A DNA stretch of 64,000 bases. Origin: Pedobacter jejuensis (GTDB lineage: Bacteria; Bacteroidota; Bacteroidia; Sphingobacteriales; Sphingobacteriaceae). The notes beneath the pieces were generated by a model. It made no database searches. It was not told the DNA's origin and saw nothing but the letters and a program-made list of their open reading frames with translations. How positions within the stretch are numbered: position 1 is the first letter of the stretch; every line of letters begins with the position of its first letter. The DNA lies in contig NZ_RBEE01000001.1 in assembly GCF_003725795.1 (NCBI RefSeq), forward strand, positions 62,001-126,000, written 5' to 3'. The translations under genes were made by a program, and so were the position numbers. Positions 7,530 to 56,525 of the stretch are shown one piece after another.

Positions 7530-8683
7530 TATTTTAAACCATTAAGGCAATAAGGAATAGTTGTTCACGATCGCTTATTTAGGGCAATAAGTAAAAGGTA
7601 TCTTAATGCCTTATTATTTAGGTTTGATTCTAATCATTAAAGTTTTAATTTAAACAATTAAGGCATTAAGAAATAGTTGTTCCAAGATTTATATTCAACC
7701 ATTAAGGCAATAAGTAAAAAGTATCTTAATGTCTAGTGTTTTCAAGATTGTTCCAAAATTTATATTTAACCATTAAGGCAATAAGTAAAAAGTATCTTAA
7801 TGTCTAGTGTTTTCAAGATTGTTCCAAAATTTATATTTAACCATTAAGGCAATAAGTAAAAAGTATCTTAGTGCATAATGTTTTTCAAAATTGTTCCAAG
7901 ATTTATATTTAACCATTAAGGCAATAAGTAAAAAGTATCTTAATGTCTAGTGTTTTCAAGATTGTTCCAAAATTTATATTAACTATTAAGGCAATAAGTT
8001 AAATGCATCTTAATGCCTTGATGTTTTGATGATTGTTCCAAGATTTATATTTAACCATTAAGGCGATAAGTAAAAAGTATCATAATGCCTTGATGTTTTT
8101 CAAGATTGTTCCAAGATTTATATTTAACCATTAAGGCGATAAGTAAAAAGTATCATAATGCCTTGATGTTTTTCAAGATTGTTCCAAGATTTATATTTAA
8201 CCATTAAGGTAATAAGTATCTTAATGCCTTGATGTTTTTCAAGATTGTTCCAAGATTTATATTTAACCACTAAGACAATAAGTAAAAAGTATCTTAATGC
8301 CTTGATGTTTTTCAAGATTGTTCCAAGATTTATATTAACTATTAAGGCAATAAGTTAAATGCATCTTAATGCCTTGATGTTTTCATGATTGTTCCAAGAT
8401 TTATATTAACTATTAAGGCAATAAGTTAAATGCATCTTAATGCCTTGATGTTTTCATGATTGTTCCAAGATTTATATTTAACCATTAAGGCGATAAGTAA
8501 AAAGTATCATAATGCCTTGATGTTTTTCAAAATTGTTCCAGGATTTATATTTAACCATTAAGGCAATAAGTTAAATGCATCTTAATGCCTTAATGTTTTC
8601 ATGATTATTCCATGATTTATATTTAACCATTAAGGCAATAAATAAAAAGTATCTTAATGCCTTAATGTTTTTCAAAATTGATT
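7530..8683. repeat. Tandem array of about fourteen ~72-bp units
   Basis: The marker GTTCCA begins at 7679, 7750, 7821, 7893, 7964, 8035, 8108, 8181, 8247, 8320, 8391, 8462 and 8535, with a degenerate unit near 8607. Spacing is 71-73 bp with one 66-bp unit. Decayed units extend left to about 7530. Each unit contains CATTAAGG, an A-rich stretch, then CTTAATG, so every unit can form a 7-bp stem around an 18-nt loop. Units fall into sub-types that alternate (AGTAAAAAGTAT versus AGTTAAATGCAT centres), which points to unequal crossing-over. There are no unique spacers as in CRISPR and no open frame, because the period is not a multiple of three. Confidence 0.93.
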
Positions 8684-8734
8684 TTAGTTACCCAATGTTT
8701 TATAATATTTTGTATCTAGTAACCTGAATTCGAT

Positions 8735-8885
8735 TCTTAAATTTAAATTTTGCTGTTTTATTGCCGTTTTGCTTATACGGCACGTCTTGCTGAATTTATT
8801 GCAGCATCTTTCCTGGAAATAAGACCCTGAAATAAATTCAGGGTGACGTTAAAAAAAAGCAGCTTATTAATAACGTGAAGGAAAA
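8735..8885 (+). repeat. Composite palindromic repeat A, copy 1
   Basis: This copy carries TTGCTGTTTTATTGCCG, then GCTGAATTTATTGCAGC, TCTTTCCTG, AAATAAGA, the hairpin CCCTGAAATAAATTCAGGG and TGACGTTAA. The same string recurs at 10330-11530 and, inverted, at 38.4-38.9 kb. The two hairpin halves are also inverted relative to each other, like a BIME. Confidence 0.85.
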
Positions 8886-8983
8886 TTTATAATCAAACTC
8901 AGGTTAATTGGTTATTGATTTGATTATATAGGTATTAAATTTGATTATTAAAATTTAGAATAACCATTTTTTATATAAAGGTA

Positions 8984-8991
8984 TATCTTTG
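8984..8991 (+). promoter_or_regulatory. Promoter -7 box upstream of the nucleotide-sugar dehydrogenase
   Basis: TATCTTTG fits TAnnTTTG and lies 17 nt before the ATG at 9009. The matching -33 box is not obvious in the AT-rich run before it. Confidence 0.5.
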
Positions 8992-9008
8992 TTTCTTGTA
9001 GAATTTAA

Positions 9009-10289
9009 ATGGAGAGAATACCGAAAATTGCTATTATAGGATTAGGTTATGTAGGCTTACCGCTTGCTATTGAGTTCGCTAAAAAATATCTGGTTATTGG
9101 TTTTGATACCAATGATGAGCGTATAAGTGAACTTAGTAATGGTATAGATGAAACTAAGGAAGCAAATCTAAGCGAACTTAATACGGTATTAAAGAGCAGT
9201 AATTCTACTAAGGGTTTAAAGTTTAGCTCCAGTCTTGCAGACATAAGCTTATGCAACACTTACATTGTAACTGTTCCGACACCAATCGACCATTTAAAAC
9301 GACCCGATTTAGAACCTTTGCTTACCGCAACGAAGATGCTCGGTATAGTTCTGAAAACGGATGATGTAGTCGTTTACGAATCAACAGTTTATCCTGGTTG
9401 TACAGAAGAAGATTGTGTTCCAGTACTTGAAAAAATTTCTGGGTTAACCTATAATCAAGATTTTTTCTGTGGTTATTCTCCCGAGCGCATCAATCCGGGT
9501 GATAAAATCAATACACTTACAAAAATCAAAAAGGTTACATCAGGTTCTACGCCCGAAATTGCCAATCATATCAACGAATTATATGCCAGCATCATAACCG
9601 CTGGTACTTACCTGGCTCCCAGTATAAAAGTTGCGGAAGCATCCAAAGCCATAGAAAATGCACAACGCGATGTAAATATTTCCTTTGTAAACGAACTTGC
9701 CTTGATTTTCGATAAAATGGGTATAGATACATCAGACGTTCTTGCTGCAGCAGCTACAAAATGGAATTTCTTGAATTACAAACCAGGTTTGGTTGGCGGT
9801 CATTGCATCGGTGTAGATCCATATTATCTGGCACACAAATCAGAAGCTTTGGGTTACAAGCCAGAAGTGATTTTATCCGGAAGAAGGGTAAACGACAATA
9901 TGGGCATGTTTGTAGCCAATAAAGTGATTAAATTGATGGTAGCGCAAGACAAAGCCATCAAGAACGCCAGCGTTTTAATTTTAGGTTTTGCATTTAAAGA
10001 AAATTGCCCGGATGTACGCAATACCCGTGTGGTTGATATTTACAAAGAACTCCAATCATTTTCTATTGACGTGGATGTGTATGACCCTTGGGCCAATGCC
10101 GATGAAGTAAAGGGCGAATACGATATTGAACTTGTTCAAGCATTATCTTCAGAATACGACGCAATAATATTAGCAGTAGCTCATGATTTATTCCTGGAGA
10201 TAGATTACAGCATTTACAAAAATGCAGGTACAATAATTTTTGATACAAAATCTTTCATTCCTCGAGCTTTGGTTGATGCAAGGTTGTAA
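9009..10289 (+). CDS. Nucleotide-sugar 6-dehydrogenase, TviB/WbpA-like (UDP-HexNAc type)
   Basis: This 426-residue enzyme belongs to the UDP-glucose/UDP-N-acetylhexosamine dehydrogenase family, which oxidises C6 of a UDP-sugar to a uronic acid with two NAD. Visible are the Rossmann motif IAIIGLGYVGLPLA at residues 7-20, VPTPID, YESTVYPGCTEE, GYSPERINPGD, and GGHCIGVDPYYL with the catalytic Cys at residue 266. The C-terminal domain has FKENCPDVRNTRV. The YSPERINPGD and AIENAQRDVNI segments fit the TviB/WbpO group acting on UDP-GalNAc or UDP-GlcNAc better than UDP-glucose dehydrogenase. The gene stands alone between two repeat-filled spacers, so it is probably transcribed separately. The exact sugar is inferred. 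Confidence 0.9.
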   Translation: MERIPKIAIIGLGYVGLPLAIEFAKKYLVIGFDTNDERISELSNGIDETKEANLSELNTVLKSSNSTKGLKFSSSLADISLCNTYIVTVPTPIDHLKRPDLEPLLTATKMLGIVLKTDDVVVYESTVYPGCTEEDCVPVLEKISGLTYNQDFFCGYSPERINPGDKINTLTKIKKVTSGSTPEIANHINELYASIITAGTYLAPSIKVAEASKAIENAQRDVNISFVNELALIFDKMGIDTSDVLAAAATKWNFLNYKPGLVGGHCIGVDPYYLAHKSEALGYKPEVILSGRRVNDNMGMFVANKVIKLMVAQDKAIKNASVLILGFAFKENCPDVRNTRVVDIYKELQSFSIDVDVYDPWANADEVKGEYDIELVQALSSEYDAIILAVAHDLFLEIDYSIYKNAGTIIFDTKSFIPRALVDARL

Positions 10290-10329
10290 GAGCAGTTTAT
10301 TTAATTCGTATCGACTTCTAATCTATGGA

Positions 10330-10530
10330 GGTCATTCCCTGTGAATCTGAATTCGATTCTTAAACTTAATTCTTTGCTGTTTTATTGCCGTATTGCTTAT
10401 ACGGCATGTCTTGCTGAATTCATTTCAGCATCTTTCCTGCAAATAAGACCCTGAAATAAATTCAGGGTGACGTTAACTAAAAAAGCAGCTTATTAATAAT
10501 TGAAGAGAAATTGATAATGGAACACAGATT
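10330..10530 (+). repeat. Composite palindromic repeat A, copy 2
   Basis: This near-complete copy runs from GAATTCGATTCTTAAACTTA through TTGCTTATACGGCA, GCTGAATTCATTTCAGC, the CCCTGAA/TTCAGGG hairpin and AGCAGCTTATTAATAA. It aligns with the copy at 8735-8885 over about 150 bases in the same orientation. Confidence 0.85.
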
Positions 10531-10545
10531 TACAATTAGCAAAAT

Positions 10546-10600
10546 CATTGGTCAAAGATCTCTCTGTTCCGCTGTGCTCCAATCGAGATGACGGCAATGC
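10546..10600 (+). repeat. Dispersed repeat B (GATCTCTC...ATCGAGATGACGG)
   Basis: The segment GGTCAAAGATCTCTCT, TTCCGCTG, GCTCCAATCGAGATGACGG is an imperfect palindrome with arms GATCTC and GAGATG. It recurs at 10822-10880 and, inverted, at about 38600-38660. Confidence 0.75.
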
Positions 10601-10627
10601 CCGAAAAGCAACTTACCTTTGTTAAAT

Positions 10628-10705
10628 AAACGTGATTGAAATGGAAAGCCCCAATTTTTCATTGGGCTTGTAATGGAAAGCAGGGCTGAAAAATCAAAAG
10701 GATTA
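10628..10705. repeat. Partial copy of the 303-bp repeat found at 55.9-56.5 kb
   Basis: The stretch from TGATTGAAATGGAAAGCCCC through the ATTTTTCATTGGGCTT hairpin to AAAGCAGG matches the middle of the 303-bp units between dxs and scpA. Similarity fades after about 10700. The hairpin stem pairs 10650-10655 with 10661-10666. Confidence 0.7.
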
Positions 10706-10821
10706 CTGGACTAACGTTTTCAGGGAAAAATAAAATTGACACAGAAACACAGAATTCACAGAAGAGTTGGGATTGTAATTCCGAAAATGGCTGAGAAATT
10801 TTTGTAATAAAAAAACTATTG

Positions 10822-10993
10822 GTTAAAGATCTCTCTATTCCGCTGCGCTCCAATCGAGATGACGGTAATATATGGCGTCATTCGAGCGTAGCCAAATAAG
10901 ACCCTGAAATAAATTCAGGGTGACTTTTATATTCAATCGAGATGAGGGGAATATACGGCGTCATTTCGAGCGTAGCCGAGAAATCTTTGTAAC
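10822..10993 (+). repeat. Repeat B copies with a half copy of repeat A between them
   Basis: A full repeat B (GATCTCTCTATTCCGCTGCG onward) is followed by TTCGAGCGTAGCC, then only the right half of repeat A (AAGACCCTGAAATAAATTCA, GGGTGAC), then a second partial B (ATCGAGATGAGGGGAATATA, CGGCGTCATTTCGAGCGTAG). The mosaic suggests repeats inserted into, or recombined with, each other. Confidence 0.75.
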
Positions 10994-11155
10994 CTAAATT
11001 CGACTCTTAAACTTAATACGTTTTCTTTTATTGCCTTATTGCTTGTACGACACGTCTTGCTGAATTTATTTCAGCATCTTTCCTGCAAATAAGACTCTGA
11101 AATAAATTCAGGGTGACGGTAAAAAAAACAGCTTATTAATAAGTTGAAGGAAAAA
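10994..11155 (+). repeat. Composite palindromic repeat A, copy 3
   Basis: It has the same order of blocks as copies 1 and 2, with the first hairpin intact (GCTGAATTTATTTCAGC) and one change in the second (CTCTGAA against TTCAGGG). It ends in CAGCTTATTAATAA. Confidence 0.85.
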
Positions 11156-11194
11156 TAATATAACTCATCGTGGTTTGTAAGGACACAGACCATG

Positions 11195-11375
11195 GTGTGG
11201 CTGTTTTATCGCCATATTGTTTATACGACACGTCTTGCTGAATTGATTTGAACATCTTTCCTGCAAATAAGACCCTGAAATAAATTCAGGGTGACGTTAA
11301 TATTCCCCTTCGCTCCAATCGGGATGATGGGAATATACGACTTCATTTCGAGCGTAGCTGAGAAATCTTCGTAAC
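11195..11375 (+). repeat. Repeat A copy 4 followed by a partial repeat B
   Basis: GCTGAATTGATTTGAAC is a decayed first hairpin; the second, CCCTGAAATAAATTCAGGG, is perfect. From about 11306 it continues into CGCTCCAATCGGGATGATGG and TTCATTTCGAGCGTAGCTGA, the right part of repeat B. Confidence 0.8.
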
Positions 11376-11535
11376 CTAAGTTCGATTCTTAACCTTAATT
11401 TTGCTGTTTTATTGCCGTATTGCTTATACGGCTGGTCTTGCTGAATATATTTCAACATCTTTCCTGCATATAAGACCCTGAAATAAATTCAGGGTGACGT
11501 TAACTAAAAAAAGCAGTTTATCTAATTCGTATTGA
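11376..11535 (+). repeat. Composite palindromic repeat A, copy 5
   Basis: TTCGATTCTTAACCTTAATT is followed by TTGCTGTTTTATTGCCGTAT, a decayed first hairpin, a perfect second hairpin and AAAAGCAGTTTATCTAATTC. With copies 2-4 it fills the 1.4-kb spacer between the dehydrogenase and gmd, where no gene is visible. Confidence 0.85.
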
Positions 11536-37409: not shown

Positions 37410-38390
37410 GTGAGGTTGAGATCGAGGTCAAGGTTGAGATTAACGTTAAGTTGTATCTAGATATTTAGGTTAAAAAAACATTAAGGGCAATAAGAGAAAT
37501 AAGTAATTTGTTGTAAATTTATTCCCTCTAGCCCTTAATGCAATCTTTGAGGAGGATACTTCAACAAGCTTAGGGTGACACGTTAGAAAAAATCTAGACT
37601 ATTTGTTCAAATTTATGTAATACGAGGGTAGTACTTCGATAAGTTAACATCGATAGGTATTACCAGTTATTTCTAAACATTGAGGCATTAAGATAGATAA
37701 GTATTACTCTTAAAATTAAATTCTATATTGTTCTTCATTTAATACTTTTATTAAGTAACTCTTTTATTAAGATCCTTCGACAAGCTCAGGATGACATGAT
37801 AGGAAAACTCTACACCAGGTGTTTAGATTTACTTAATACGAGCATAGTACTTAGATAAGCTAAACATCGATATTCATTTCTAATTTATATTTAGACATTG
37901 AGGCATTTAGAGAGATAAGTGCTACTCTTAAAATTAAATTCTATATCGTTCTTCATTTAATTCTTTTATTAAAGTCCTCCGACAAACTCAGGATGACAAT
38001 AAGAAAACCAAAAGGTTAATGTTCTTGCGAAACATGTTAAAACATTAAGGAATTAAGAAAGGTAATATTCCATATATTCCTATGTAAATCTTTCAAAGAA
38101 AAGTCCTTCGCAATAAAAACTAAAAGGTTAATGTTACTGCGAAACAGATTTTTAAACATTAAGAAAGGTAAGTACTATTCTTAATGTTTAATTCCAAGTG
38201 TTTCTGAACGTAAAGGTCTCAAGAAAGTCCATCGACAAGCTCAAGGATGGCAATAAAAACTAAAAAGTTAATGTTCCAGCGAAACATGTTAAAACATTAA
38301 GGAATTAAGAAAGATAATATTCCATATATTCCTAAGTAAATCTTTCAAAGAAAAGTCCATTGACAAGCTCAGGATGATTATAGTTGGATT
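37410..38390. repeat. Junction between clusters A and B: decayed tandem and dispersed repeats
   Basis: No gene is visible. A unit with ATTGAGGCATT, GATAAGT, CTCTTAAAATTAAATTCTAT and TTCTTCATTTAAT occurs at about 37620-37800 and 37840-38000 (period about 219). Another, from AGTTAATGTT through AAACATTAAGGAATTAAGAA to TCTTTCAAAGAAAAGTCC, occurs at about 38010-38106 and 38262-38358 (period 252), with a partial copy between. Copies of the CTTCGACAAGCTCAGGATGA element lie near 37555, 37772, 37976, 38228 and 38356. The CATTAAGG phrases recall the 72-bp array at 7.5-8.7 kb. Confidence 0.8.
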
Positions 38391-38665
38391 ATTAATTTTC
38401 CTTCACATTATTAATAGGCTGTTTTTTTTAGTTAAAGTCACCCTGAATTTATTTCAGGGTCTTATTTGCAGGAAAGATGCTGAAATAAATTCAGCATGAC
38501 GTGTCGTAAAAGCAATACGGAGATAAAACAGCAATTTATTTATTTCAAGAATCGGACTCAAGTTACAAAGATTTCTCGGCTACGCTCGAAATGACGCCCT
38601 ATATTCCCGTCATCTCGATTGGAGCGCAGCGGGATAGAGAGATCTTTGACCAATGGTTTCGCTAA
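38391..38665 (-). repeat. Repeats A and B, inverted copies
   Basis: The stretch CCTTCACATTATTAATAGGC to AACAGCAATTTATTTATTTC is the reverse complement of repeat A, with both hairpins perfect (CCCTGAATTTATTTCAGGG and GCTGAAATAAATTCAGC). It runs into repeat B, also inverted (AAAGATTTCTCGGCTACGCT ... GATTGGAGCGCAGCGGGATA, GAGAGATCTTTGACC). The A-B order mirrors that at 10.3-11.5 kb. Confidence 0.87.
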
Positions 38666-38684: not shown

Positions 38685-38891
38685 TATTAATTTTCCTTCA
38701 CATTATTAATAGGCTGTCTTTTTTTAGTTTACCTCACCTGAATTTATTTAAGGGTCTTATTTGCAGGAAAGATGCTGAAATAAATTCAGCATAACGTGTA
38801 GTACAAGCAATAGGGCGATAAAATAGAAATTTATTTATTTCAAGAATCGGGCTCTCAGGTTAATAGATGCTGAAATAAATTCGGCAAGACG
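38685..38891 (-). repeat. Repeat A, second inverted copy plus a partial third
   Basis: A second inverted repeat A spans about 38685-38855, with a damaged outer hairpin (CACCTGAATTTATTTAAGGG). A remnant of the inner hairpin, GCTGAAATAAATTCGGC, lies at 38869-38885, 6 nt from the stop codon of the Wzz gene of cluster B, where it could act as a transcript end or stabiliser. Confidence 0.8.
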
Positions 38892-55891: not shown

Positions 55892-56525
55892 GCGCAAGGA
55901 TGGTGCAAGAAACTAAATTTGTTCCCGTTTTTCGCTTTACTACGCTAACAGCTGAAATAGCTGTTGCTACGTGTTCGCTGCAACCGGGGCTATATTGCAA
56001 AAGATATGTTCCATTTTAATGGATTGCATGGTGCACAATCTTCTGTTTGTAAACCTGATTGAAATGAAAAGCCCCAATTTTTCATTGGGCTTGGAATGTA
56101 AAGCAGGACTGCAAACCGCCAAAAGCACTGAATTTTCATTTCCAAAATAATTTTAAACTGGATTAAGATATCCATGCAGTTATAATTTTTAGTAGCGCAA
56201 GGCTTGTGCAAGAAACTAAATTTGCTCCCGTTTTACGCTTTACTGCGCTAACAGCTGAAATGGCTGTTGCTACGTGTTCGCTTCAACCGGGGCTATATTG
56301 CAAAAGATATGTTCCATTTTAATGGATTGCATGGTGCACAATCTTCTGTTTGTAAACCTGATTGAAATGAAAAGCCCCAATTTTTCATTGGGCTTGGAAT
56401 GTAAAGCAGGACTGCAAACCGCCAAAAGCACTGAATTTTCATTTCCAAAATAATTTTAAACTGGATTAAGATATCCACGCAGTTATATTTTTTTGCAGCG
56501 CAAGATTTGTCCAAAAAACTAAAAG
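55892..56525. repeat. 303-bp tandem duplication with a truncated third unit
   Basis: Units begin with GCGCAAG at 55892 and 56195, and a third, cut off after about 28 bases, at 56498, so the period is exactly 303. The two complete units differ mainly in their first ~90 bases and at the end; the middle is almost identical. Each contains a hairpin (AAGCCCCAATTTTTCATTGG, GCTT) at 56068-56092 and 56371-56395 and an inner dyad, AGCTGAAATAGCT or AGCTGAAATGGCT. Part of the unit also occurs at 10628-10705. The 303-bp period keeps a 73-codon minus-strand frame open in both units, but I see no evidence that it is a gene. Confidence 0.9.

Follow-up and report, generated by a model that had tools for sequence, protein, structure and literature searches.

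A CGTC-tagged, REP-like pair of inverted hairpins between genes of Pedobacter jejuensis

Repeat copies in the window and the genome

A 64,000-nucleotide stretch of the Pedobacter jejuensis genome (contig NZ_RBEE01000001.1, positions 62,001 to 126,000; hereafter the window) carries between 8.7 and 11.5 kb a repeat of about 140 bp, repeat A, which is built around two small inverted hairpins and whose copies flank both sides of the open reading frame (ORF) at 9009-10289, presumably a gene for a nucleotide-sugar dehydrogenase. Repeat A is almost certainly a repetitive extragenic palindromic (REP) sequence of the CGTC-tagged kind, a class already known though little studied. It is a tag-outside (head-to-head) heterodimer of two CGTC-tagged REP units, and as such a non-autonomous element of the type described as REPINs (REP doublets forming hairpins) or bacterial interspersed mosaic elements (BIMEs). 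Written in a common orientation, the left unit reads CGTC-TTGCTGAA-TTTAT-TTCAGCAT-CTT and its right-hand partner CGTC-ACCCTGAA-TTTAT-TTCAGGGT-CTT; in each the CGTC tag is followed by an 8-bp stem with a 5-nt loop and by a CTT tail, and they lie as an inverted pair with the tags outside. The units found in the window are as follows:

8783-8848: CGTC-tagged dimer 1 (long form 8719-8858); left unit 8783-8810 (+) with a stem mismatch (TTGCAG), right unit 8821-8848 (-)
10407-10472: dimer 2 (long form 10343-10482); left tag TGTC, left loop TTCAT; right unit perfect
10898-10925 (-): solo right unit; outer tag AGTC; adjoins part of another repeat
11053-11118: dimer 3 (long form 10989-11128); loops exact complements; right unit with one T where the other copies have C, giving T-G
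11231-11296: dimer 4 (long form 11167-11306); left stem degraded; right unit perfect
11434-11499: dimer 5 (long form 11370-11509); left tag GGTC, left stem degraded; right unit perfect
38436-38501: additional dimer with the two unit types in the opposite order
38731-38796: additional dimer, partly degraded
38864-38891 (-): additional single unit

A first-pass annotation of the window had described five copies of a BIME-like composite repeat with two hairpins whose loops are complementary. The five full copies are there and share one register, the second to fifth being 71-87% identical to the first (8719-8858), and a lone right half lies at 10893-10934. The hairpins as described hold only in part: the left one, GCTGAA-TTTAT-TTCAGC, is letter-exact in a single copy (at 11053), retains its stem but not its loop at 10407 and has stem mismatches in the remaining three, whereas the right one, CCCTGAA-ATAAA-TTCAGGG, is exact in four of the five copies and in the solo half. 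The proposed 15-bp pairing across the two units is likewise perfect in one window copy and elsewhere in the genome, and imperfect in the other four. The likeness to BIMEs was borne out well beyond the window. A 148-bp query against the genome (4,795,808 bases in 45 contigs) returned 105 rows, made up of 63 separate places with 70-148 matched query bases each, the solo unit and 41 weaker rows that are the opposite strand of the same places. The 15-nt hairpin core occurs 372 times (194 + 178) at up to two mismatches, compared with 25 (15 + 10) for a reversed control, and the repeat is therefore not due to chance.

Tags and layout of the dimer

The tag was assessed in a sample of 816 kb comprising the window, contig C2 and 400 kb of contig C12. 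No tetranucleotide stands before perfect 8-bp stems with loops of 4-6 nt more often here than CGTC (28 cases against 0.27 expected), and GTAG does not occur before such stems at all. A search for the tag-outside order only yielded 28 dimers, along with 14 single matches, four of them within ORFs. A simple ORF call places every one of the 28 dimers in intergenic space, 16 between genes of the same direction, 10 between convergent and two between divergent genes; both of the latter lie in one region, and 75 of 382 intergenic intervals are divergent in the background. Tag-inside pairs closer than 127 bp are absent among the matches listed for this genome. The left unit bears CGTC in 37 of 51 long-form copies, CCTC in two and TGTC in one.

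The 5-nt loop is standard: 290 of 307 tagged CTGA-type units, which have CTGA at the inner base of the stem, show a standard tip and 17 a longer one. Of these 17, six contain a TCCGATAGCTATCGGA-like palindrome; a few simply span neighbouring units. CGTC units with three different stem types carry such a palindrome at the edge of the loop, at the following sites:

L223:594, L275:1002, L360:883 and L360:4793 (+)
L231:298 and L293:1511 (reverse-strand coordinates)

Pairing and folding of the two units

Pairing was examined independently of the stem sequence by taking 94 distinct seeds of an exact 26-nt unit, the C-type unit (112 loci), and locating the partner by its GAC[GA] tag alone. The tag stood at the right distance for 67 seeds and was lacking for 27. 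Among the 67 partners so located 34 formed 8 of 8 pairs, 13 formed 7 and 20 formed five or fewer, some of the last being longer-tip units or cases of a misplaced tag; 7-8 pairs were thus reached by 47 of the 67, against 0.07% of shuffles. The covariance analysis that had been suggested along with the first-pass annotation came out in favour of folding: among those 47 there are 23 distinct partners, in which GC, TA, CG and AT all occur at the third pair and TA, AT and CG at the second, while pairs 1 to 5 show 1-3 unpaired cases, so that stem change within each hairpin is compensatory. Hairpin formation by each unit is accordingly under constraint. The first pair is A-T and the second T-A in 20 of the 23 partners each; in the C-type unit the second pair is C-G, and in the long-form left unit the first is often T-T. 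The partner is of a different type from the seed in 45 of the 47 well-paired cases, and the two exceptions are a single Sphingorhabdus dimer seen from both sides. Among the 51 long-form copies, which were found by their left flank alone, all 8 pairs are present in 37 right units and 13 left units.

The loops of the two hairpins are reverse complements in the consensus, and it had been proposed that an RNA or single-stranded DNA could alternate between a state with two small hairpins, perhaps kissing, and a single long hairpin. As a rival reading this would come with a regulatory role downstream of genes. Both folds are feasible with RNA and with DNA parameters, and the scarcity of dimers between divergent genes is in keeping with such a position. 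For the consensus core, however, the long fold is simply lower in energy (-26.7 against -20.4 kcal/mol for the two hairpins with RNA parameters, -17.0 against -13.8 with DNA parameters, a preference of about 6 and 3 kcal/mol). In addition, 17 of the 47 unselected partners have a loop that exactly complements that of the seed, ACAAG being commoner (19), and in the 51 source-genome copies the left loop varies (TTTAT in 34) while the right one stays constant (ATAAA in 46). A search of the window with Rfam gave no family at the repeat. The loops thus do not seem to be kept complementary across genomes, and their complementarity comes from each unit being a copy of the other in inverse orientation, which needs no switch or kissing role; a switch is very improbable. 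A terminator role was dropped, as no long T-run lies 3' of the hairpins.

Ends of the element and its long form

Of 99 genomes in the genus, 61 have a match to the 148-bp query, with up to eight candidates scored per genome. Outside the source genome (G000) and G046 the commonest match, among the matches listed, covers query positions 66-130, a stretch that opens with base two of the left tag (TGTC in the query) and closes with the last base of GACG; some listed matches extend further, for instance 33-130 and 66-142. The stretch common to genomes is therefore mostly that from outer CGTC to outer GACG, 66 bp here. The bases beyond the tags around exact C-type units carry 0.03-0.44 bits, with a slight excess of T before and of A after. 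Because ATCGC follows the outer GACG in 6 of 14 dimers (five relatives), a few bases past this tag may belong to the element.

Among the matches listed, G000 and G046 alone match the form of about 150 bp well (at least 84% over a length above 100 bases). Matches of 73-75% run past the tag on one side in G005, G070 and G101, and the enlargement may for this reason predate G000 and G046.

Occurrence and turnover among relatives

The number of hairpin cores per genome ranges from 0 to 347 across the genus, and individual sites differ between relatives. At one intergenic site compared in seven genomes G099 has the whole dimer and the source genome half of it; G005, G070 and G079 have neither, and G046 and G101 have other sequence. 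At a second site the dimer is present in G109 and in G088 (there with altered tips), neither dimer nor repeats occur in G020 and G057, and G068, G074 and G084 hold other repeats, in which CGTC or GACG stands at one end at least. A third dimer is common to G068 and G057, where G020 and G074 have about 1.5 kb of other sequence, and in G057 one of its tips is replaced by another palindrome while the stem base is intact relative to G068. At one more site the dimer is present in the source genome only, as compared with two relatives. Two locus pairs have letter-identical dimers, including the spacer, with different left flanks. Locus L190 was also considered against L185 as an empty site; the 200-bp dimer stretch is absent from L185 but lies inside a tandem array, and the pair is uninformative.

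The exact 26-nt C-type unit occurs in at least 112 genome stretches, whereas about 0.0001 would be expected by chance in 257 billion bases (own arithmetic). Its hosts, among the matches listed, are mostly Pedobacter and other Bacteroidota, along with bins of Delongbacteria, Treponema, Marinimicrobia and Sphingomonadaceae and isolates of Sphingorhabdus (an alphaproteobacterium) and Pseudoalteromonas (a gammaproteobacterium); bins may carry contamination, isolates less so. A scan of viral contigs found no exact G-type unit. The presence of the same 26 letters in Bacteroidota and in alpha- and gammaproteobacterial isolates means that the unit is highly constrained.

In Pedobacter borealis DSM 19626 eight contigs (L267, L276, L280, L295, L302, L318, L330 and L335) share a near-identical stretch around a CGTC dimer, several of them near contig ends, which suggests a larger repeat.

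Relation to known REP sequences

The closest known system is the superfamily of CGTC-tagged REPs (Di Nocera, De Gregorio and Rocco 2013, PMC3733652). In the sections of that article drawn on here, its members are described as having an unpaired CGTC (or TGTC, CCTC) end, a stem of 8-9 bp with A-T pairs at the first and second positions, a loop of 4-5 nt and a short unpaired tail that in most but not all cases fits CCA; they form mostly head-to-head dimers and have no dedicated transposase, and the article leaves open what moves them. Repeat A shares with this account the outer CGTC, the 8-bp stem, the 5-nt loop, a mostly A-T first pair, tag-outside dimers that are heterodimers, the location between genes and the lack of a dedicated transposase. 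It is assigned to the CGTC REPs because tag, stem length, loop length, dimer order and the absence of a linked transposase fit. It differs in its CTT tail, which does not fit CGTC REPs, in following the A-T rule for the first two pairs only in part and in the enlarged form of about 150 bp in the source-genome lineage. Pedobacter is not named in the main text of the article (figures aside), and the lack of a dedicated transposase for CGTC REPs is now extended to this genus.

Repeat A also resembles REPINs and BIMEs, as characterised in the relevant parts of Bertels and Rainey (2011, PMC3116915), in that two inverted REPs with a spacer can form a hairpin and are kept and spread as a doublet. Unlike the GTAG REPs treated there, which go with REP-associated tyrosine transposases (RAYTs), its tag is CGTC and no resident RAYT was seen flanked by the same repeat.

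Y1 transposase genes

The window contains no RAYT gene, as the first-pass annotation had stated, and both Y1 genes of the source genome lie outside it. The check for a RAYT elsewhere in the genome was positive. The gene product at L032, near the end of contig C6, is a RAYT of 181 aa (NCBIfam REP_Tyr_transpos, 83.8 bits, cut-off 80). Its motifs WQ and YLHDNP are close to the WQ and YIH[QN]NP tabulated for the Bacteroidetes TnpA-REP subclass 2.6, an assignment made by motif only, and the NH[LIV]H of the table is SHVH in this protein (PMC6006769, in the portion covering these subclasses, as for the two statements that follow). Genes of subclass 2.6 are described as flanked by atypical structures, and those of subclass 1.2 as generally devoid of typical terminal structures. 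The second protein, L031, is of the IS200 type (144 aa, 64.8 bits, cut-off 55) and its motif YIKNQEKHH resembles the one given there for subclass 1.2. No repeat unit lies beside L032 in the 212 bp upstream, which reach the contig end, or in the 1254 bp downstream, and none was found in the flanks of L031 examined. Three variants of a CCGTTGGTTTCAACCAACGG-like palindrome lie upstream of the latter gene (L031:1-360).

The survey was extended to 131 distinct Y1 loci within the genus, from 52 genomes; 154 loci were scanned overall, four of them duplicate places. The scan targeted this unit type and perfect 8-bp stems behind CGTC or TGTC, and other families could escape it. A core-like match was found at 21 of the 154 loci, with tagged dimers only at L107, where at least two lie directly upstream of a RAYT, and at L190, where one lies about 260 bp upstream of the Y1 domain. 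A single degraded unit is present at L258 and another at L260, L251 has a tagged hairpin of other sequence and the remaining matches are untagged. Of 40 RAYT-type loci 35 have a hairpin of at least 8 pairs within 350 bp, the present type occurring only at L107; the hairpins beside subclass 2.6-like genes in relatives are similarly not this repeat, L107 excepted. In the genome of L107 the dimer and the double hairpin that flanks the RAYT occur apart elsewhere (among the matches listed), for which reason the locus was set aside as a candidate CGTC REPtron.

Core count and Y1 gene number are correlated among genomes (Spearman 0.62, n = 99, uncorrected for shared descent). Y1 genes are present in 45 of 53 repeat-rich genomes, defined by an author-chosen cut of at least 12 cores, compared with 12 of 46 repeat-poor ones; at cuts of 20 and 40 cores the rich genomes with Y1 number 40 of 48 and 26 of 29. 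These genes were found by a Pfam model, by which divergent Y1 genes could be missed.

Possible modes of spread

HUH transposases use a guide beside a hairpin. Taking all lines of evidence together, the best explanation is probably that repeat A is a CGTC REP heterodimer mobilised as a pair, the long form of which was amplified in the source-genome lineage. It is proposed that each half would fold on single-stranded DNA into its own hairpin beside the CGTC guide, and that an HUH (Y1-like) transposase acting in trans, encoded away from the element, would cut and join at the tags; cutting at the outer tags would move the pair as one. In the source-genome lineage a version of about 150 bp with captured flanking DNA would then have been amplified, and local duplication may have produced the cluster at 8.7-11.5 kb. 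The long hairpin is another way for that strand to fold, and a switch role for it is not supported. For the trans-acting HUH enzyme, taken as a claim of its own, the chances are put at a little under even.

The enzyme could also be the resident one. In a classical REPtron the RAYT on contig C6 would recognise the hairpin and would be, or have been, flanked by it; the gene is intact and scores above the NCBIfam cut-off, Y1 genes are commoner in repeat-rich genomes and L107 offers one relative with such dimers directly upstream of a RAYT. Movement by an adjacent RAYT, which the first-pass annotation had evoked, is nevertheless unlikely given the absence of a unit from the flanks covered for the source-genome RAYT, the separate occurrence of the two repeat types of L107, the different hairpins of the other RAYT loci and the repeat-rich genomes that have no Y1 match. 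Those same genomes, together with the want of Y1 linkage, speak for spread by another enzyme (DDE or other) or by recombination or gene conversion among palindromes, with no HUH transposase involved, as do the chimeric-looking half-element at 10876-10925, the tip swapped on a retained stem base in the orthologous dimer of G068 and G057 and the short palindromes at loop edges of several loci. Plain recombination would not be expected to give ends at the tags in many unrelated contexts, however, and the conserved unpaired tetranucleotide beside the hairpin resembles an HUH guide; this route is considered possible but doubtful.

Several observations count against mobilisation of the pair by a trans-acting HUH enzyme or against the CGTC assignment on which it builds. 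Dimers are present at 2 of the 131 Y1 loci, and the three dimers concerned compare with 2.5 expected under uniform placement, a figure that would be higher if intergenic space alone counted; the hairpins near RAYT loci are mostly not this repeat. No Y1 match was found in 8 of the 53 repeat-rich genomes, including G102 with 118 cores, and the correlation between Y1 genes and cores ignores descent. A clean empty site with exact ends was not obtained among the sites compared, the ends being unreadable at two presence/absence sites because the flanks are too diverged. Spacer similarity is the same within genomes (0.78, 16 pairs) as between them (0.76, 75 pairs). If one stem mismatch is allowed CGTC ranks only tenth in the 816-kb sample (48 cases), behind A/T-rich words; the tail of the window copies is CTT and not CCA; and the tag is not always the limit of the element, as the one-sided extensions in other relatives illustrate.

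A broader reading, put forward tentatively and with the odds well against it, would join these strands. With no dedicated transposase, a promiscuous HUH enzyme with different cognate repeats would move CGTC REP pairs in Bacteroidota, hairpin tips would pass from one family to another on a tagged stem base that stays the same, and an ancient 26-nt unit would persist letter for letter across phyla. The genus, with its range of core numbers and with genomes that do and do not have Y1 genes, makes the mover of CGTC REPs testable by genetics and by in vitro cleavage.

Other repeats in and near the window

About 14 tandem copies of a unit of roughly 72 bp (7677-8680) directly precede the repeat region. 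A second repeat type occupies the same spaces as repeat A, at 10556-10593, 10826-10864, 10876-10896 and 10959-10985, with CGTC or GACG at one end in these four places, and in degraded form at 11300-11372; a piece of it abuts a repeat A right unit at 10876-10925. A 218-bp unit in 1.9 tandem copies (37555-37972) contains CTTCAACAAGCTCAGGATGACA, which looks like another tagged palindrome. Two matches to the Flavo-1 RNA (56047-56114 and 56350-56417) lie inside a 303-bp tandem repeat.

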